Of a DNA stretch of 64,000 nt, positions 49,585 through 59,179 are shown in pieces. The stretch is from positions 1 through 64,000 of the forward strand of contig JAHITX010000040.1 in NCBI GenBank assembly GCA_018817425.1, in the 5' to 3' direction. The notes beneath the pieces are model-generated. The model was not told the DNA's origin and ran no database searches. It worked only from the letters and a program-made list of their open reading frames with translations. The DNA is from Pseudomonadota bacterium. Lineage in GTDB: Bacteria > Desulfobacterota > Desulfobacteria > Desulfobacterales > RPRI01. The stretch's first letter is position 1. Every line of letters begins with the position of its first letter. The translations under genes and the position numbers were made by a program.

Positions 49585-51024
49585 TTGTTTAGAGTCAAAA
49601 GCTTCTCCTTAAACATACGCAAAAAAATAATCGTTGGTCTTACAATATGTCTTCTTGTAATAGGTTTTGTCGGGGGAAATTCATACCGGTTTTTGCATCA
49701 GATAGAACAGAAACAGCACCTTGTTGAAGTTGCCGATGATCTCAGCAATATAGTACTTGAGATAAGGCGGTATGAAAAAAACTTTCTTTTATATGGTTCA
49801 CAGGACGACCTGTCAGAGAATAGGAGTTATATTAAAAAGGGCCTTGAAGTTCTTTCAAACATTTCCGCTGATATGAAAAAAAAGAAAGGTGCGCCTCAGA
49901 TCGGATTGATTGAAAAGGGATTAATAGAGTATGAAAAGCTGATGGATCAGATGGCTGTTTGTGTAGTAGGGGGAAGGAAAGACTGTGAAAATGATCTGGA
50001 AGACAGGCTGCGGGCGGAAGGGAAAAATCTTGTAGACAGGTCAATAGCCCTTGTCAGTTTTGAAAGGGAAAGGATTCTTGCTATAATCGGGCAACTTAAA
50101 AAACATATCATCATTAATGTTACATTATTTTTATCAATGGGTATGTTTTTAATACCGATGATGGCAAGAAAGATAATAAAGCCTTTGAGGATAATTGAAA
50201 AAACAACGGTCCAGATAGCAAACGGGAATTTTTCTTTTATTCCGGTTCAAAATACAAGGGATGAAACACAGCGTGTAGTTGAAGCATTCAACCGCATGGT
50301 TGCAGAACTTGAAAAACGCCAGGAACAACTGGTTCAAACAAAAAAATTGTCATCAATAGGGATTCTTACTTCAGGTGTTGCCCATCAGCTTAACAATCCA
50401 CTAAACAATATTTCAACTTCCTGCCAGATACTTTTGGAAGAAGGCCGTGATGCTGAACCCGAGTTTATGCACAGAATGCTTTTAAATATTGAACAGGAAG
50501 TAAACAGGGCAAGAGATACCGTGAAAGGGCTTTTGGAATTTTCCCGTGACAGAGATTTTGCTCTGGCTCCGGTTTCTCTTGATGAAGTGGCAGAGCGTTC
50601 AATCAGGCTTGTTTCAAGCCAGGTGCCTTCCGGAATCGAAATACAAAAGGATATACCTAAAGATTTGGTGCTTGATATAGATATGCAGCGAATTCAGGAA
50701 GTATTTCTGAATTTAATCATAAATGCTGTTCAGGCTATTGAAAGCACATCAGGTCTTATAAAAATATCGGCAAAGCCGGATCATGCTGTCGGAATGGCTG
50801 TGATAAATTTTGAGGATACGGGCGTCGGCATACCTGAAGATAATTTCGATATGATTTTCGATCCTTTTTTTACTACAAAAGAAGTTGGTATGGGAACCGG
50901 CCTTGGACTTTCGATAGTATACGGAATTGTGCAACAGCATAAAGGTTCCATTTCGGTTGAGAGCAAGGTAGGCGAGGGCACAAGATTTATAATTCATCTT
51001 CCACTTCATAAACAACGGGCATGA
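49585..51024 (+). CDS. Membrane sensor histidine kinase
   Basis: This is a 479-residue kinase. Transmembrane helix 1 is near residues 14-30 (IIVGLTICLLVIGFVGG) and helix 2 near 173-193. Between them is an extracytoplasmic helical domain of about 140 residues. A HAMP-like linker, then the H box GVAHQLNNPLNNI near 265, NAVQAIE, DTGVGIP, DPFFTTK and GTGLGLSI follow. It starts with TTG after GAGGTGA. The operon with the sigma-54 regulator makes it the cognate kinase. The stimulus is unknown, but the neighbouring UspA/TauE genes suggest a redox or sulfur-related stress. Confidence 0.88.
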   Translation: MFRVKSFSLNIRKKIIVGLTICLLVIGFVGGNSYRFLHQIEQKQHLVEVADDLSNIVLEIRRYEKNFLLYGSQDDLSENRSYIKKGLEVLSNISADMKKKKGAPQIGLIEKGLIEYEKLMDQMAVCVVGGRKDCENDLEDRLRAEGKNLVDRSIALVSFERERILAIIGQLKKHIIINVTLFLSMGMFLIPMMARKIIKPLRIIEKTTVQIANGNFSFIPVQNTRDETQRVVEAFNRMVAELEKRQEQLVQTKKLSSIGILTSGVAHQLNNPLNNISTSCQILLEEGRDAEPEFMHRMLLNIEQEVNRARDTVKGLLEFSRDRDFALAPVSLDEVAERSIRLVSSQVPSGIEIQKDIPKDLVLDIDMQRIQEVFLNLIINAVQAIESTSGLIKISAKPDHAVGMAVINFEDTGVGIPEDNFDMIFDPFFTTKEVGMGTGLGLSIVYGIVQQHKGSISVESKVGEGTRFIIHLPLHKQRA

Positions 51025-51035
51025 AGGAGACTATA

Positions 51036-52397
51036 ATGACGGCTAAAACCGCCCGGATATTAATTGTAGATGATGAACAGATTGCAAGAGAGAATCTGGA
51101 TCATGTCCTTAATAAAGAAGGATATGAAACCGTGCCGGTTGAAAACGGAATTGCAGCCTTAAAAGAGCTTGAAAAAGCGGAATTTGATCTTGTGCTGACA
51201 GATCTTAAAATGCAGGTAGTTGACGGCCTTAAGGTTCTTGAAAAGACAAAAGAGCTTTATCCTGCAACAGAAGTTATTATTATAACGGGATACGCTACTG
51301 TTGCTACGGCAGTTGAAGCAATGCAAAGAGGTGCATTTTATTATATACCAAAGCCTGTCAAAATAGAGGAAGTCCGTATTCTTGTGAGGCAGGCGCTTGA
51401 AAAGAAATCTTTAAAAAAAGAAGTTGCGGAACTTAAACTTCGTATCGGAAGCAAAAAAGAAATTACTTTTATTACCGGCAATAATGCTAAAATGGACAAT
51501 CTGAAAAAAACTGTTGAACAGATTGCTCCAACTGATTGTACAGCTCTTATACTCGGTGAAACCGGAACCGGTAAGGAACTAGTAGCTAAAATGATTCACA
51601 AGCTGAGCAACCGTTGTGAGAAAAGATTTCTTGCAGTAAACTGCGGGGCATTTAATGAGGAACTTCTTGCAAATGAACTTTTCGGGCATGAAAAAGAAGC
51701 TTTTACAGGGGCACGCGGAATAAAAAAAGGTTTGCTGGAAGCAGCTGAAGGAGGAACTGTTTTTTTGGATGAAATAGGCGATATGCCGCTTTCGATGCAG
51801 GTAAAGCTTTTAAGAGTTTTGCAGGACAGGACATTAATCAGGGTAGGGGGGACTGATGAAATTTCTGTTGATATTCGAATAATTGCTGCTACAAATAAGA
51901 ATCTTGCATTGGAGATCGAGGAAGGAAATTTCCGTCAGGATTTATTTTACCGTATCAATGTCATAACACTTCATGTTCCGCCTCTTTCGGAAAGAAAAGA
52001 AAGCATTCCGGTTTTGAGCATGCATTTTATAAAAAAATATTCAGAGAACCAGGGGAAAAATATTATAAATATTTCTGATGAAGTAATGGCTATTCTTGAA
52101 AGCTATGAGTATCCCGGTAATATCAGAGAACTGGAGAATATCATGGAACATGCTGTGGCAATGGCGGATGGAAATACAATTACAATGCGTCATCTTCCGC
52201 CGGATTTCCAGCAGCTTAAATTCAGGATACAAAGCAGGCGGCAAAGAGAATTTCTTACGCTGGAAGAAAATGAAATGGAGTATATTGCATGGGTACTCGA
52301 TCAGGTGGAGAATAAAAAAATAAAAGCAGCTGAAATCCTGGGTATAGACAGGGTTTCATTATGGAGAAAGTTAAGACGCTATAACCTTGATACATAG
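51036..52397 (+). CDS. Sigma-54-dependent response regulator (NtrC-like)
   Basis: This is about 453 residues. The receiver comes first (LIVDDEQIAREN, phosphoacceptor Asp in VLTDLKM near residue 56). The AAA+ domain has GETGTGKE near 174 and VFLDEIGD. The C-terminal Fis-type HTH is AAEILGIDRVSLWRKLRR. The sigma-54-contact loop reads EAFTGA, not the usual GAFTGA. AAGGAG lies before ATG 51036, and the earlier ATG (51021) overlaps that site. It probably acts at the dyads 54506-54607. The gene's stop abuts the Lon stop with no space. Confidence 0.9.
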   Translation: MTAKTARILIVDDEQIARENLDHVLNKEGYETVPVENGIAALKELEKAEFDLVLTDLKMQVVDGLKVLEKTKELYPATEVIIITGYATVATAVEAMQRGAFYYIPKPVKIEEVRILVRQALEKKSLKKEVAELKLRIGSKKEITFITGNNAKMDNLKKTVEQIAPTDCTALILGETGTGKELVAKMIHKLSNRCEKRFLAVNCGAFNEELLANELFGHEKEAFTGARGIKKGLLEAAEGGTVFLDEIGDMPLSMQVKLLRVLQDRTLIRVGGTDEISVDIRIIAATNKNLALEIEEGNFRQDLFYRINVITLHVPPLSERKESIPVLSMHFIKKYSENQGKNIINISDEVMAILESYEYPGNIRELENIMEHAVAMADGNTITMRHLPPDFQQLKFRIQSRRQREFLTLEENEMEYIAWVLDQVENKKIKAAEILGIDRVSLWRKLRRYNLDT

Positions 52398-54419
52398 CTA
52401 TTGTATAACCAATTTCACAATAAAAGGGATTTCTTCCGCAAGCACAATTTCTATACCTTCTTTGGCTTCCGGTTCAAGATTTGTAACATCCGTTTCATTG
52501 CGTTTGGGAAAAACAACAGTTTTGATTCCGCTTCGCTGAGCGGCAAGAATTTTTTCACGAATTCCGCTTATACCTAATATCCTTCCGCTTAATGTAATCT
52601 CACCTGTCATAGCAATATCGTTTCTTGCCGGTTTTCCTGTTAAAAGAGAAATTAGGGCAACGGCAATTGTGATACCTGCTGAAGGTCCATCTTTTGGTAT
52701 TGCTCCTGAAGGAATATGAATATGAATGTCGCGTTCATTAAAAAAATCCGGATCTATTCCGAACTGCTCAGCATTGCTTCTAACAAAACTTAATGCTGTC
52801 TGCGCCGATTCCTGCAAAACATTTCCCATTGATCCTGTCAGTATAAGCTGACGGTTTCCTTTCATCAGGCTTGCTTCAATGAAAATAATTTCTCCCCCGA
52901 ATTCAGTCCACACAAGACCAGTTGTTATGCCGGCTTTATTTTCTCTTTCAGCAATTTCATGTGTGAATTTTCTGGGGCCAAGAAGTTTTTCAATAAGTAT
53001 ATCATCAACTGTTATCGAATCTGCATTATTAGGTCCGTTGCCGTTTTGAAGAAAAAGTCTTGCCATTTTACGAAATATTGTTGCAATTTCACGCTCAAAA
53101 TTACGAAGCCCTGCTTCCTGCGTGTAGTCATTTACTATTTTAGATATGGCATTATCTAATAATTCAATATTAAAACCGACCAAACCATGCTCTTTGATCT
53201 GCTTTGGTATAAGATGAAGCTTTGCGATATTTCTTTTTTCTTTTTCCGTGTAACCGGAAAAACGAATTACTTCCAGCCTGTCTAAAAGAGGAGCAGGAAG
53301 CTTTTCAACCATATTAGCTGTTGATATAAACATTACACCCGAAAGATCAAAAGGTGCATCAAGATAATGGTCGGTGAAATTGCTGTTTTGCTCAGGATCA
53401 AGAATCTCTAAGAGAACCGAAGCCGGATCACCATGAAAATCCTGTCCGATTTTATCAATTTCATCAAGCATAAAAACCGGATTACATGTTCCTGCGCGTT
53501 TTATCTCATTAATAATTCTTCCGGGCATTGCTCCAACATATGTTCTTCGGTGCCCGCGTAAATCAGCTTCATCTCTTAGCCCTGCAAGTGATATACGAAC
53601 AAATTTTCTTCCTAAAGCCTCTGCAATAGATCTTCCGACCGAAGTCTTGCCGGTTCCGGGAGGGCCTGCAAAACAAAGTACCGGGCTGCGGGTCATTTGT
53701 ATATGCTTTTTCTTATCAATAATCTGTCGAACTGTTTGGCGAAGCTCATCTAAGTTTATAGGTTTGGGAAGATAGTGGAATGCGCCTTTTTTTAATGCGT
53801 TTACAGCTGAACTGACGGTTGCAAATCCGGTTATCATAACAAGTTCGGTATGGGGAGATATTTTTTTTGCAGATTCCAGCAATTGAATGCCGTCCATCTT
53901 TTCCATTTTGAGATCGGTTAATATCAAATCTATGTGGTGTTCTTTTAAGATATTTACCGCTTCAAGCCCGTTTGCTGCCGTACTTATTGCATAACCTTCT
54001 TTGCGCAATATATATTCAAGGTTATTTCTTGCTATTTCCTCATCATCAACAACTAATATATGAAATTTCTGTATACTGAAAAGGGTTCTTACGGAAAGAT
54101 ATTCAAGCACGCGTTCTTTGATGGCATTCAAACCGTAATGTTTGGATTCCATTATTTTTTCAGCGTTTTTTAAATCAAGATTGTCATCTGTGAAAGTATG
54201 CCAAGGCAGAGATAGGAGGTATTCGATATAATTAAAGCCTATACTGTATTCCGGTGTTGAAATATCCATGTTTTCCATGCGTTCCAGTTCTCTGATTGCG
54301 ACAGAGGCGAGAGAATCGGATAATCCTGCCTTTTCGACTAAAGTACGTAAGTCTGAGAGTTCCTGATTAGGTCTTTTATTCTCTTCAGCTTGTTTTTCAG
54401 GCTTTTTTGTAAAAATCAT
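52398..54419 (-). CDS. Lon-type protease with an inserted response-regulator receiver domain
   Basis: This is a 673-residue protein. Residues 20-112 are the helical linker of Lon (YIEYLLSLPWHTF, YGLNAIKERVLEYLSVRTL). Residues 120-235 are a complete receiver: D125/D126, phosphoacceptor D169, T197 and K219. Residues 245-480 are AAA+ (Walker A GPPGTGKTS at 252-260, Walker B VFMLDEID). The protease domain has Ser580 (DGPSAG) and Lys623 (REKILA), an intact dyad. The N-terminal substrate-binding LAN domain of standard Lon is absent. The receiver is nested exactly between linker and AAA+, so phosphorylation could gate proteolysis. AAAGGATGG precedes the start. Confidence 0.92.
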   Translation of the reverse strand: MIFTKKPEKQAEENKRPNQELSDLRTLVEKAGLSDSLASVAIRELERMENMDISTPEYSIGFNYIEYLLSLPWHTFTDDNLDLKNAEKIMESKHYGLNAIKERVLEYLSVRTLFSIQKFHILVVDDEEIARNNLEYILRKEGYAISTAANGLEAVNILKEHHIDLILTDLKMEKMDGIQLLESAKKISPHTELVMITGFATVSSAVNALKKGAFHYLPKPINLDELRQTVRQIIDKKKHIQMTRSPVLCFAGPPGTGKTSVGRSIAEALGRKFVRISLAGLRDEADLRGHRRTYVGAMPGRIINEIKRAGTCNPVFMLDEIDKIGQDFHGDPASVLLEILDPEQNSNFTDHYLDAPFDLSGVMFISTANMVEKLPAPLLDRLEVIRFSGYTEKEKRNIAKLHLIPKQIKEHGLVGFNIELLDNAISKIVNDYTQEAGLRNFEREIATIFRKMARLFLQNGNGPNNADSITVDDILIEKLLGPRKFTHEIAERENKAGITTGLVWTEFGGEIIFIEASLMKGNRQLILTGSMGNVLQESAQTALSFVRSNAEQFGIDPDFFNERDIHIHIPSGAIPKDGPSAGITIAVALISLLTGKPARNDIAMTGEITLSGRILGISGIREKILAAQRSGIKTVVFPKRNETDVTNLEPEAKEGIEIVLAEEIPFIVKLVIQ

Positions 54420-54505: not shown

Positions 54506-54699
54506 GTTGCATTTAGCAACGGCCAATCACATAATGTAACATAGATATAACAATCTGAAATAATTATAAAATATATTTAGCTAAAATATAATGTTGCATA
54601 TTGCAATAAATACGAAAAACGAGACAAAGCCTATAACATGATATATATAATTATGATAGATAGTTATAGTTAGTTATAATATATGGCATAATAATTGAA
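54506..54699 (+). promoter_or_regulatory. Candidate sigma-54 promoter with two upstream dyads
   Basis: GTTGCATTTAGCAAC (54506-54520) and GTTGCATATTGCAAT (54593-54607) share the dyad TTGC-N5-GCAA. They lie about 170 and 85 bp upstream of TGGCAT-AATAA-TTGAA (54684-54699), which is close to TGGCAC-N5-TTGCA (the -12 GC is GA here). The spacing suits NtrC-type enhancer sites. The neighbouring regulator is the candidate binder. Confidence 0.55.
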
Positions 54700-54772: not shown

Positions 54773-55543
54773 GTGAATATAAAAAGTGATTCAAAAAACA
54801 GCAGAATGGAAGAATGCAGAAAAATCCTGGTTGTTGGAGAAGAAGGCTTATTTTCAGAAAGCTTAATCGATTATGCAGTTCAAGTAGCAAAGCGCCTTAA
54901 TTATAATATTCTTTCGGTAAGTGTTATGCAAAAAGGTTTGGAAGAAGTATCCGGGAAGCCCGGAGAATTTCTTAACAATTTATTTAGAATGAAAGCTGAA
55001 TCTGGCGGGATAGGGTATGACAATTTGCTTCGATACGGAGATTCAGGGATAATAGCTGAGAAAATTATTCATGAAATAAGAAGGATAGGATTTATAATAA
55101 CCGGATCTGATGAAAGCAAGGAGAAGATTGCGGCTGAAGTTACGATTCCGGTTTTTAGCGTTTTTACAAATAAAAATATAAAAGGAGGAAAGAAAATGGC
55201 TGAAGAAATCAAGCAAAAGAAACCGGTAGGTAAAACATTGGGCTATGGTGCAATAAGTTTAGCTCTCTATGCAGCGGTTTTTACGAATACCGATACAATA
55301 ACAGATTATTTCACAAGGGGTGGGTGGTATTCGGCGTTGCCGATTTTGACTGTTTTTGCTTTTTCATTTGCTCACGGAGCATTTGCCAGTAATTTTTGGT
55401 CTCTTATGGGAATTGAAGCGGCTCATACTGATACCAAGGTTGTTACTATTGAAAAGAGTGTTAAAGATGATGTGCGGTCAAATAAAGTTGCAAGGAAAAG
55501 ACCGCGGGCTCGTGCATACATCAATCCTTTTCACAGACTATAA
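54773..55543 (+). CDS. UspA-like domain joined to a small membrane protein
   Basis: This is a 256-residue protein. The first 140 residues are a divergent UspA fold (CRKILVVGEEGLFSESLIDY, IITGSDESKEKI, VTIPVFSVF). The rest has two membrane helices (TLGYGAISLALYAAVF, LPILTVFAFSFAHGAF) and a basic tail (ARKRPRARAYINP). GTG 54773 starts it. A strong AAAGGAGG precedes an in-frame ATG at 55196, so a separate 115-residue membrane protein may be made from the same reading frame. It is the first gene of the UspA/TauE series and is probably driven by the sigma-54 promoter. Confidence 0.7.
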   Translation: MNIKSDSKNSRMEECRKILVVGEEGLFSESLIDYAVQVAKRLNYNILSVSVMQKGLEEVSGKPGEFLNNLFRMKAESGGIGYDNLLRYGDSGIIAEKIIHEIRRIGFIITGSDESKEKIAAEVTIPVFSVFTNKNIKGGKKMAEEIKQKKPVGKTLGYGAISLALYAAVFTNTDTITDYFTRGGWYSALPILTVFAFSFAHGAFASNFWSLMGIEAAHTDTKVVTIEKSVKDDVRSNKVARKRPRARAYINPFHRL

Positions 55544-55620: not shown

Positions 55621-56685
55621 ATGCAGGATTTAGCAGTGGAGAGTTTAAAATTTATTGATTTAAATCTTATGTCGATATTGTTTTTGTTTGTAATTGGTTT
55701 TATCGGAGGGCTTGTAAGCGGTTTTATCGGATCAGGCGGAGCATTTGTTCTTACTCCGGGCATGATGAGTCTTGGAGTGCCGGGCACAGTAGCTGTGGCA
55801 AGCAATATGTGTCATAAGTTCCCAAAAGCTATGGTGGGGGCATTTAAACGCTTTAAATACGGTCAGGTGGATCTAAAGCTTGGAATTGTTACGGCGGCTT
55901 CAGCAGTAGTGGGAGTTCAGGTTGGAATTCAGATTCAGCATTACATCCTCGAGAAATGGGGTGAAGCCGGATCCAATCTGTATGTAAGTTTGGCTTTTGT
56001 TGTTATTCTTGTGCTAGTTGGTGGGTACGTTTTTTTTGATGCATGGAAGATAGCCAAAACCGGAGGCGTTGAGAAGGTAACCATGCTGGCTCGGAAACTC
56101 CAGTCTATAAATCTTCCGCCTATGATTCATTTCAAAAAGGCAAATCTAACAATATCATTATGGTTTACTATCCCTGTCGGTTTTGCTGCAGGAATGCTGG
56201 CAGCAACGATTGCTGTTGGTGGTTTTGTAGGTGTACCAGGAATGATATATGTAGTTGGAGCATCAAGTATCATAGCTTCAGCAACGGAGCTGGTAATAGC
56301 GTTTATTATGGGTTTAGGGGGTTCTATAAACTGGGCAATGCATGGAATGATTGATATACGTCTCACTCTTCTTATTCTTGCAGGATCTCTTTTTGGTGTT
56401 CAGTTGGGGGCAATAGGAACAACATATGTAAAAGATCATATGATCAAAATTGTAATGGGTACAATCATGCTTCTTGTTGCGGTCAGCAGAGGGCTTGCAA
56501 TACCAAAGTATTTAGATCAGCTAGGCCTGGTATCTATGAACGCAGGAGATATAAATCTGATGACGAAGATAAGCTTTGGAATAATGTGTTTTGCTCTTGT
56601 AACCGGCGCATTAATTATACTAGGAAGCATGTGGAAAGCAAGATCACCCAGGTTTGCAACAGAAGAAAGTTATGGGAAGGCATAA
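55621..56685 (+). CDS. TauE/SafE-family anion permease
   Basis: This is a 354-residue inner-membrane protein with about eight helices. The N-terminal half has FIGSGGAFVLTPGMMSLGVP with SNMCHKFPKAM. The second repeat has ATIAVGGFVGVPGMIYVVGA. TauE/SafE members export sulfite, sulfoacetate or related organosulfur anions. GGAGGAGAT precedes ATG 55621. A perfect terminator follows the gene. In a sulfate reducer, sulfite or sulfate movement is a plausible function. Confidence 0.85.
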   Translation: MQDLAVESLKFIDLNLMSILFLFVIGFIGGLVSGFIGSGGAFVLTPGMMSLGVPGTVAVASNMCHKFPKAMVGAFKRFKYGQVDLKLGIVTAASAVVGVQVGIQIQHYILEKWGEAGSNLYVSLAFVVILVLVGGYVFFDAWKIAKTGGVEKVTMLARKLQSINLPPMIHFKKANLTISLWFTIPVGFAAGMLAATIAVGGFVGVPGMIYVVGASSIIASATELVIAFIMGLGGSINWAMHGMIDIRLTLLILAGSLFGVQLGAIGTTYVKDHMIKIVMGTIMLLVAVSRGLAIPKYLDQLGLVSMNAGDINLMTKISFGIMCFALVTGALIILGSMWKARSPRFATEESYGKA

Positions 56686-56768: not shown

Positions 56769-56904
56769 TTTTTAGCAAAGGCGGGTATATTATTAAAAAA
56801 GATAGTATTTATAGTTGTGGTCCCATATGGGGGTTGGCCCCTTCTGCCCAGCGGCTTTAAGCTTATGGACAGCATACCATTTAATCCGGGAAAGGAGGAG
56901 TATT

Positions 56905-57714
56905 ATGTCAATCATAACTATTTCCAGAGCTTCATACAGCGGTGGAGAGGAGGTTGCTGAAAAGGTTGCAAAAAAACTGGGGTATGATCGTATTTCAAGA
57001 GAGATCCTTTTAGATGCATCTGAAATGTTTCATATACCCGAGATAAAGCTTGCAAGGGCCATTAGTGATGCACCTTCCATTCTTGATCGTTTCAACAATG
57101 GTAAAGAGATGTATGTTACCTATATTCAGACGGCGCTTTTAAAATATCTGCGTGAAGATGACATTGTTTATCATGGGCTTGCAGGTCATTTTTTTGTAAG
57201 AAACATAAAGCATGTGCTCAAGGTCCGTATTATAGCAGACATGGAAGACAGAATCAGAATAGAAATGAAAAGAGAAAAAGTAAATGAGGAAAAGGCGCTT
57301 AAAACCATAAAAAAAGATGATGAGCAGAGAAGAAAATGGAGTCATTTTTTATATGGGATAGATACATGGGATAACAGCTTATATGATTTGATACTTCATA
57401 TTAAAAACATAACAACAGATGATGCAGCAGATATAATTTGTCATACGGCATCGCTTGAGCATTTTAAAACGACTCCCGAATCACAAAAAAGCATTGAAGA
57501 TCTTGCTTTGGCGGCAGAGGTCAGGGCTGAATTATTTGATTTATGCCCATATGTGGAAACAAGTGCCAATGATGGCATAGTGAGCGTAGTAGCCAGAGTT
57601 CACGAATATCAGAGATCCAATATTTCTCCCGAGTTGATATCAAAAGCAGAAAGAGTAAATGGTGTTAAAGGTATCAAAATGAAAGTTTTGCCAATTACCG
57701 TATATACCGATTAG
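56905..57714 (+). CDS. Cytidylate kinase-like family protein
   Basis: This is about 269 residues. It begins MSIITISRASYSGGEEVAEK, a P-loop-like start of the 'cytidylate kinase-like' group, and continues DRISREILLDASE, AGHFFVRNIKHVLKVRI and DDEQRRKWSHFLYG. It is probably an ATP-binding protein, not the true Cmk. C-terminal residues 215-269 form a small ferredoxin-like or BON-type fold (TSANDGIVSVVARVHE, VNGVKGIKMKVLP). GGAGGAG lies just before ATG 56905. Homologues often accompany UspA and TauE genes in this clade, but the role is unknown. Confidence 0.78.
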   Translation: MSIITISRASYSGGEEVAEKVAKKLGYDRISREILLDASEMFHIPEIKLARAISDAPSILDRFNNGKEMYVTYIQTALLKYLREDDIVYHGLAGHFFVRNIKHVLKVRIIADMEDRIRIEMKREKVNEEKALKTIKKDDEQRRKWSHFLYGIDTWDNSLYDLILHIKNITTDDAADIICHTASLEHFKTTPESQKSIEDLALAAEVRAELFDLCPYVETSANDGIVSVVARVHEYQRSNISPELISKAERVNGVKGIKMKVLPITVYTD

Positions 57715-57751: not shown

Positions 57752-58558
57752 ATGGGATTATATGACAAAATATTAGTTGCAGTTGATGGTTCCGATGCAA
57801 GTCTTCATGCACTATCTGAATCTATAAAACTTTCTTACTGGGTAAGGGGAAGTGTTTGTGCGATTTATGTTGCGCCTTCGTATGAAGGTGATTTGAGTTT
57901 AACGGGTGTTAAGAATCTGGATGCATTGTTAAGCGAACCCTGTAAAATCACTCTTGCTAAAATAAAAGAAACTGTTGAACAAATTGATGCCTCCATTCAG
58001 GCTTTGTGCTTGGAAGGTGAACCTTTTGAGAAAATAATGGAATATGCTGAAAAAGAGGGTTTTGATCTTATAGTTGCCGGGGTTGAAAAGAAAAATACCT
58101 TATACAGGACGCTAATTAAAGGGGTTGCGGAAAAAATAATCCGTTATGGTTCAAAAGATATTCTTATAATACCGCAAAACACTTCAATCGGCTGGGATAA
58201 AATCCTTGTTTCAAAAAATAAATCCCAACATGATGGAATGGCAGTTAAAAAAGCAATGGAAATTACAAAAGCATATGGTGGGGAATTGCTTATTATAGAT
58301 GATAATATAAATAAAAAAGAAGTTATTAATGGAATAAATAAACTTTCTTCCAAAATTGTGTTTAAAACAATTATAAAAAATGGAAATGGACCGAAAGCAA
58401 TCTTAGATACTGCTTTTGAAAATAATACTGATTTAATTATCATGAGCTCTTTATTCAAAAAAAGTATCAGGAATTTAATTTTCAAAAATACCATTGAAAA
58501 AGTAGTTTTATCTTCAACCTGCCCTGTGCTGGTTGTATCCGAGAGCCTTGTCAGTTAA
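57752..58558 (+). CDS. Universal stress protein (two UspA domains)
   Basis: This is a 268-residue tandem UspA. Domain 1 (residues 1-145) has KILVAVDGSDASLHAL and the nucleotide-type GVAEKIIRYGSKDILII. Domain 2 (150-268) has KILVSKNKSQHDGMAV and NTIEKVVLSSTCPVLVV and is more diverged. It probably binds ATP and takes part in starvation or oxidative stress. It is 37 bp after the cytidylate-kinase-like gene. Confidence 0.88.
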   Translation: MGLYDKILVAVDGSDASLHALSESIKLSYWVRGSVCAIYVAPSYEGDLSLTGVKNLDALLSEPCKITLAKIKETVEQIDASIQALCLEGEPFEKIMEYAEKEGFDLIVAGVEKKNTLYRTLIKGVAEKIIRYGSKDILIIPQNTSIGWDKILVSKNKSQHDGMAVKKAMEITKAYGGELLIIDDNINKKEVINGINKLSSKIVFKTIIKNGNGPKAILDTAFENNTDLIIMSSLFKKSIRNLIFKNTIEKVVLSSTCPVLVVSESLVS

Positions 58559-58597: not shown

Positions 58598-58846
58598 ATG
58601 CCTCCGGTAAAAATGTATTCGCTTAGTACTTGCAGACATTGTAAAGACGCCAAAAAATATTTTGATGAATGCACAATAAATTATGATTTTGTTGATGTAG
58701 ATCTTTTAAAGGGAAAAGAAAGAAATGAAATCCTTGAAGAGATAAAAAAAATTAATCCCGATTGTTCTTTTCCTACAATAATAATAGGCGATAAGGTAGT
58801 TGCCGGCTTTAAAGAAGAAGAAATCAAGGAGGCGTTAGGAATATAA
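58598..58846 (+). CDS. Glutaredoxin-like protein
   Basis: This is an 82-residue thioredoxin-fold protein with a CRHC active site (STCRHCKDAKKYF). The cis-proline segment is SFPTIIIGDKVVAGF. It should reduce disulfides or glutathione-like mixed disulfides. Its stop is directly followed by the ATG of the FTR-like gene, so the two probably work together. Confidence 0.9.
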   Translation: MPPVKMYSLSTCRHCKDAKKYFDECTINYDFVDVDLLKGKERNEILEEIKKINPDCSFPTIIIGDKVVAGFKEEEIKEALGI

Positions 58847-59179
58847 ATGGAACCTGAAATACTATATGAAATGTTAAAAAAAGTTCAGGAACCCAAGGGG
58901 TATTATTTTAATAAAGACAAAGCAGTAGTAATAGATCTGCTTGAGTCCCTTTGTTTCAATAAAGAACGCTATGGATATATGGCATGTCCATGCAGGCTCG
59001 CATCCGGAGACAGAAAAAATGATGAAGATATAATATGTCCTTGCGTATATAGGGTTAAAGATGTGAAACAATACGGGAGTTGCTATTGCGGTCTTTATGT
59101 CTCAAAAGAATGGAACGAAGATACCGATGAACATGAATATGTTCCTGAAAGAAGGCCGGGATCAAGAATGATATTTTAA
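58847..59179 (+). CDS. Ferredoxin-thioredoxin reductase catalytic-subunit-like protein
   Basis: This is a 110-residue FTR-beta-like protein. Cysteines occur as CPC (47-49), CPC (64-66) and CYC (79-81). The canonical motif is CPC-X16-CPC-X8-CHC, and here the gaps are 14 and 12. It should hold a 4Fe-4S cluster next to a redox disulfide and pass electrons from ferredoxin to the adjacent glutaredoxin-like protein. The gene ends 3 bp before the convergent YkgJ gene. Confidence 0.82.
   Translation: MEPEILYEMLKKVQEPKGYYFNKDKAVVIDLLESLCFNKERYGYMACPCRLASGDRKNDEDIICPCVYRVKDVKQYGSCYCGLYVSKEWNEDTDEHEYVPERRPGSRMIF

Follow-up and report, generated by a model that had tools for sequence, protein, structure and literature searches.

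Whether a histidine kinase can switch proteolysis directly, through a receiver domain that forms part of the protease itself, is a question raised by a bacterium of the sulfate-reducer type whose Lon has an intact two-component receiver (REC) built in. To our knowledge, no AAA+ protease has been shown to be switched by aspartate phosphorylation within its own chain. In Caulobacter, the single-domain receiver CpdR tunes the substrate choice of ClpXP, and a two-component receiver thus controls an AAA+ protease as proposed here, although CpdR is separate from ClpXP and the receiver of the present protein, termed REC-Lon, is part of the protease chain. The locus was analyzed within a window of 64,000 nucleotides (contig JAHITX010000040.1; Table 1), and we give a probability of roughly 0.6 to the reading of REC-Lon as the protease branch of a signaling system with three components, in which it would share a kinase with a transcriptional regulator and be gated by phosphorylation.

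Placement of the receiver within the Lon chain

The plus strand of 52398-54419 contains stop codons throughout, and the coding strand is the minus strand. Pfam domains span residues 121-231 (Response_reg), 248-388 (AAA), 409-460 (Lon_lid), and 471-672 (Lon_C) of the product, which contains both the Lon-clade AAA+ module with its Walker A and B motifs and the protease domain with its Ser-Lys dyad, and scores 704.8 bits against the NCBIfam Lon equivalog TIGR00763 (cut-off 608). The receiver has the REC fold with its acidic pair, phospho-Asp, Thr/Ser, and Lys, the residues D125/D126, D169, T197, and K219 all being found at the positions for which a complete receiver had been claimed. Lon structures (3m6a) align in two pieces, to residues 20-114 and 242-667, and the receiver lies precisely in the gap; together with the predicted structure, this confirms the original prediction of a receiver nested between the Lon linker and the AAA+ module. 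That prediction also held that the usual N-terminal substrate domain is missing, and Pfam returned no LON substrate-binding domain for the window protein, the result being identical for 16 of 16 relatives. Because of this absence REC-Lon is, by its sequence, a Lon-derived variant and not a standard LonA. LonA (MEROPS S16; B. subtilis LonA, 3m6a) shares with it the linker, AAA+ module, lid, and Ser-Lys protease domain at 38% identity, whereas REC-Lon is without the N-terminal LON domain and carries the ∼120-residue receiver between linker and AAA+ module.

Table 1. Features of the REC-Lon locus, with positions in the window
Feature	Position	Strand	Evidence or remark
REC-Lon protease gene	52398..54419	-	673 aa, ATG start
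Lon helical linker, residues 20-116	54072..54362	-	phmmer to 3m6a residues 9-103; model helices
Inserted receiver domain, residues 120-243	53691..54062	-	Pfam PF00072 2.7e-30; model
Phospho-acceptor Asp169	53913..53915	-	kept in 71/71 relatives
Lon AAA+ module and lid, residues 246-460	53040..53684	-	Pfam PF00004, PF22667
Lon S16 protease domain, residues 471-672	52404..53009	-	Pfam PF05362 1.1e-79
Catalytic Ser580	52680..52682	-	kept in 70/70 relatives
Catalytic Lys623	52551..52553	-	kept in 70/70 relatives
HAMP/HisKA/HATPase sensor kinase, likely phosphodonor	49585..51024	+	Pfam, linkage
NtrC-type response regulator (REC, Sigma54_activat, HTH_8)	51021..52397	+	Pfam
Operator-like palindrome GTTGCATTTAGCAAC, REC-Lon-proximal	54506..54520	none	motif search
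Second palindrome GTTGCATATTGCAAT, 87 bp from first	54593..54607	none	motif search
Divergent gene, syntenic with Usp-like/membrane proteins	54773..55543	+	synteny; L193 syntenic gene matches Usp
TauE/SafE (TSUP) anion transporter, candidate regulated target	55621..56685	+	Pfam PF01925 4e-36
Cytidylate-kinase-like protein	56815..57714	+	PF13189
Tandem universal stress protein	57752..58558	+	PF00582

An AlphaFold2 model of REC-Lon, built with 57 sequences (pLDDT 83, pTM 0.73), contains a complete (βα)5 receiver between the linker helix (residues 98-116) and the AAA+ strand (residues 247-251), with three residues on either side of the receiver at 120-243. The long α5 of the receiver (residues 223-243) enters the AAA+ core, and the modeled chain passes from linker helix to receiver, α5, and AAA+ strand without a flexible tether. 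Overlaid on B. subtilis Lon (3m6a), the model gives a target TM of 0.91 and an rmsd of 3.1 Å, and by this match the receiver is an insertion that leaves the Lon frame in place. On the evidence of the model, a signal may be conveyed via α5. NtrC/DctD-type regulators are alike in having a receiver directly N-terminal to an AAA+ ring ATPase and joined to it via α5, and the REC-Lon receiver is related to that of the partner NtrC-type regulator; REC-Lon differs from them in that its output is proteolysis and not transcription, and its AAA+ module belongs to the Lon clade and not to the σ54-activator clade.

Conservation and spread of REC-Lon

A homologue search found that the insertion of a receiver into Lon recurs, and the resulting 72 non-redundant REC-Lons formed the set in which conservation was assessed, members outside the counts given here having gaps at the position concerned. 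The phospho-Asp D169, together with K219 and Pro220, is invariant among readable sequences (71/71), which rules out a degenerate remnant from which the phospho-Asp has been lost; position 126 holds 69 Asp and 2 Glu, and position 197 holds 67 Thr and 4 Ser. The Ser580/Lys623 dyad, already taken to be intact in the window protein, is in place there and in the relatives (70/70), and Walker A K258 and Walker B D319/E320 are present in 72/72. In a Lon-core tree of 50 sequences, 25 of them REC-Lons and 25 canonical Lons, a branch supported at 100% SH-aLRT separates the REC-Lons from the rest, which include the three canonical Lons encoded alongside the window's REC-Lon. Since the active sites are invariant and the REC-Lons form a single clade, a chance, decayed, or one-off fusion was ruled out. 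The three canonical genes (contigs C23, C30, and C61; loci L002-L004) have open frames of 792-815 aa.

Scanning one genome per species yielded 32 REC-Lons (L009-L039 and L042) among the best 80 Lon relatives. Whole-genome searches returned REC-Lon in 34 of 147 genomes at the level of the class and a match spanning the receiver in 34 of 297 at the level of the phylum, plus one truncated match; canonical Lons in the phylum search match REC-Lon only from about residue 240. None of 24 Nitrospirota genomes gave a REC-Lon at a strict cut-off, and Nitrospirota relatives (Thermodesulfovibrio) have been reported (Rajeev et al., 2011; PMC3333781). A plasmid search returned no full REC-Lon match.

The invariant receiver residues bear on the reading in which Lon is always active and the receiver, whether phosphorylated or not, serves as a targeting or adaptor module, recruiting substrates or tethering the protease to the kinase or regulator, in the manner of CpdR with ClpXP. 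This would suit a protein that has lost its substrate-binding N-domain, has the receiver as its sole added domain, and keeps an otherwise ordinary Lon core with intact AAA+ and protease motifs. A pure tether, however, needs no invariant phospho-Asp, Thr, and Lys, so that the 71/71 conservation favors switching, and the direct connection of α5 to the AAA+ module in the model suits allostery; we regard a targeting role as unlikely. Phospho-gating of REC-Lon proteolysis is a reasonable proposal, by which the phosphorylated receiver would alter its α4-β5-α5 face within Lon and, through the α5 that runs into the first AAA+ strand, would control assembly of the Lon hexamer or the coupling of its ATPase. 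Because the Lon substrate domain is gone and three ordinary Lons are encoded in the same genome, REC-Lon would probably be a narrow, signal-gated degrader and not an enzyme of general quality control.

A proposed shared kinase and the Desulfovibrio vulgaris counterpart

The genes for the NtrC-type regulator and REC-Lon end tail to tail, and the kinase gene precedes that of the regulator. The kinase at 49585 had been singled out as the possible switch of proteolysis, and its place beside REC-Lon is backed by recurrent linkage, while gating by this kinase is still presumptive. Of 49 loci with sufficient flanking sequence, 41 have regulator and kinase linked to REC-Lon and eight have no linked regulator inside the fetched range; a universal stress protein (Usp) is linked in 54 of 65 loci and a divergent TauE in 45 of 65. 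The same linkages occur around canonical Lon in 0 of 48 loci, which include other lineages and serve as a control for Lon genes generally, not as a phylogenetically matched one.

Within its own genome, the Lon receiver has its best REC match in that of the partner regulator (3e-36, the next being 1e-24). In the REC tree, Lon receivers group with those of the linked regulators (94% SH-aLRT) and with three other receivers of the genome, though with so small a number of alignment columns such trees cannot pin down where the Lon receiver came from. Going by these sequences, direct duplication from the partner regulator's receiver is likely, if not proven. Recent copying of the neighboring receiver was rejected, identity between the two receivers being 50.1% within a locus vs 49.3% between loci. 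Both families have an α1 signature, I-A-R-x-N (I129, A130, R131, and N133), in which N133 is 100% conserved in each and is not the leading residue in 20 other receivers of the genome. The α1 helix is the main kinase-contact helix of receivers, and the common signature is consistent with one kinase serving both. The membrane kinase would then be the phosphodonor both for the receiver of the NtrC-type regulator and for the one inserted in Lon. Two receivers of similar α1 signature beside one kinase would also fit a phosphate sink, in which the main role of the Lon receiver is to draw phosphoryl groups off the kinase, with proteolysis left uncontrolled; this is very improbable, as it leaves unexplained both the invariant Ser/Lys and Walker motifs and an insertion exactly at the joint of linker and AAA+ module.

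The shared-kinase reading has a published precedent in gene content. The D. vulgaris genes DVU3303-3305 were named a ‘three-component system’, in which the response regulator DVU3303 includes a Lon protease, DVU3304 is the kinase, and DVU3305 is the regulator, and phosphorylation was suggested to be possibly required for DVU3303 protease activity (Rajeev et al., 2011; PMC3333781). REC-Lon is thus not uncharacterized in kind, as first supposed, the kind having been described in 2011 (PMC3333781) and given a mutant phenotype in 2023 (PMC10102598). The literature searched held no report of a kinase phosphorylating REC-Lon or of phosphorylation altering its proteolysis. What is new here, as far as we have checked, is how far the family extends, that its active sites are invariant, that it forms one clade, and that its loci carry palindromes in pairs. 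The window likewise encodes REC-Lon, a histidine kinase, and a σ54-type (NtrC-type) regulator together, with a Usp/anion-transporter operon adjoining, but REC-Lon is convergent to the kinase and regulator in the window whereas the D. vulgaris genes form one operon. A Desulfovibrionaceae metagenome-assembled genome (MAG) carries the same gene set with one palindrome and a REC-Lon 55-56% identical to that of the window over its full length. This gene set matches the published DVU3298-3305 content and ties the window's locus to that of D. vulgaris, the likeness to DVU3303 being one to its published description and to this relative rather than to its own sequence.

In a transposon-fitness study, DVU3303, DVU3304, and DVU3305 showed co-fitness >0.9 and one mutant phenotype; under chlorate, a mutant disrupted in any one of them is at an advantage, and the target transporter DVU3299 is needed (PMC10102598). 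That all three mutants are fitter in chlorate, with DVU3299 needed, suggests a common direction of action for protease and regulator, although equal phenotypes could also arise from polarity, the three genes lying in one operon. The two would then push the pathway the same way, the regulator acting on transcription and the protease on a protein, for which the transporter and a stress protein are candidates. The same data weigh on the idea that REC-Lon is a feedback protease that ends the signal by destroying the phosphorylated regulator or the kinase. Its linkage with both would fit such a role, and related receivers could form mixed dimers; yet loss of the protease in D. vulgaris mimics loss of the kinase or regulator (co-fitness >0.9), the opposite of what an antagonist would do unless the insertions are polar, and we consider this feedback role distinctly improbable. 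The REC-Lon family is widespread, and D. vulgaris, a genetically tractable species, offers a counterpart whose mutant phenotype is already known.

Paired palindromes and the candidate regulated operon

Upstream of REC-Lon there is a strong excess of short words akin to TTGCA/TGCAAC, which make up the palindrome RTTGC-N5-GCAAY. A strict RTTGC-N5-GCAAY core occurs in 39 of 69 upstream regions (0.42 in shuffles) and two strict copies in 28 of 69 (0.00 in shuffles), and the 5-base spacer alone is enriched, with 68 sites vs 0-5 for other spacers. The copies lie 85-90 bp apart in 25 cases, and palindrome density is 1.12 per kb upstream of REC-Lon vs 0.022 elsewhere in the loci. With a weight matrix, a pair 83-92 bp apart was found in the divergent promoter region of 47 of 69 loci against 0.03 expected from shuffles; as these upstream regions also supplied the training set of the matrix, the strict counts are the cleaner test, and the shuffles preserved base composition, not dinucleotides, while related genomes are not independent. 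The REC-Lon locus has the genome's only pair at the conserved spacing. A wider palindrome regulon was rejected, the other genomic copies (exact or one-mismatch) being single and, among those examined, mostly inside genes.

Next to REC-Lon in the window, the Usp/anion-transporter genes together with the paired palindromes form a candidate regulated operon. The pair is a candidate operator, and the linked regulator would bind both palindromes in the interval that separates REC-Lon from the stress/anion-transporter operon, which agrees with the published control by DVU3305 of its own operon and of DVU3302-3298 through a conserved site (PMC3333781). The regulator carries EAFTGA instead of GAFTGA (among its relatives, EAFTGA in 31/54 and GAFTGA in 14/54), compared with GAFSGA in DVU3305 (PMC4641369). 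A σ54 promoter before REC-Lon was ruled out in the window, where no -24/-12 consensus lies in the 450 bases upstream. Given the EAFTGA motif and the missing consensus, the regulator may act at REC-Lon other than as a standard σ54 activator.

Across these lines, we infer the shared kinase, the gating, the substrate, and the regulator as binder of the palindromes. The fullest version, a one-polypeptide phospho-gated AAA+ protease in which a single kinase acts on a transcription factor and on a protease of the Lon type at the same time, with the palindrome pair 83-92 bp apart as operator, is put forward tentatively, as somewhat doubtful in its entirety. If true, it would mean a joint resetting of how much of one target, be it an anion transporter or the stress proteins that partner it, is made and how much is destroyed. 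Conserved candidate operator sites are now at hand for the REC-Lon loci.

Several smaller observations concern this region. The product of the divergent gene at 54773..55543 gave no Pfam match above threshold in the window copy, and no Rfam match to an RNA element was obtained. At locus L140 (10491-12305), which has no TauE, a CitMHS/TrkA-C anion transporter sits in the divergent operon. Downstream (3′) of the Usp operon in the window, 58598-59179 encodes a glutaredoxin followed by a ferredoxin-thioredoxin-reductase catalytic-chain-like protein, an arrangement also present in L030. Between the two palindromes (54521-54592) lie an AT-rich block and, ∼20 bp before the REC-Lon-proximal palindrome, a conserved TGTTRCA half-site (TGTTACA, minus strand).
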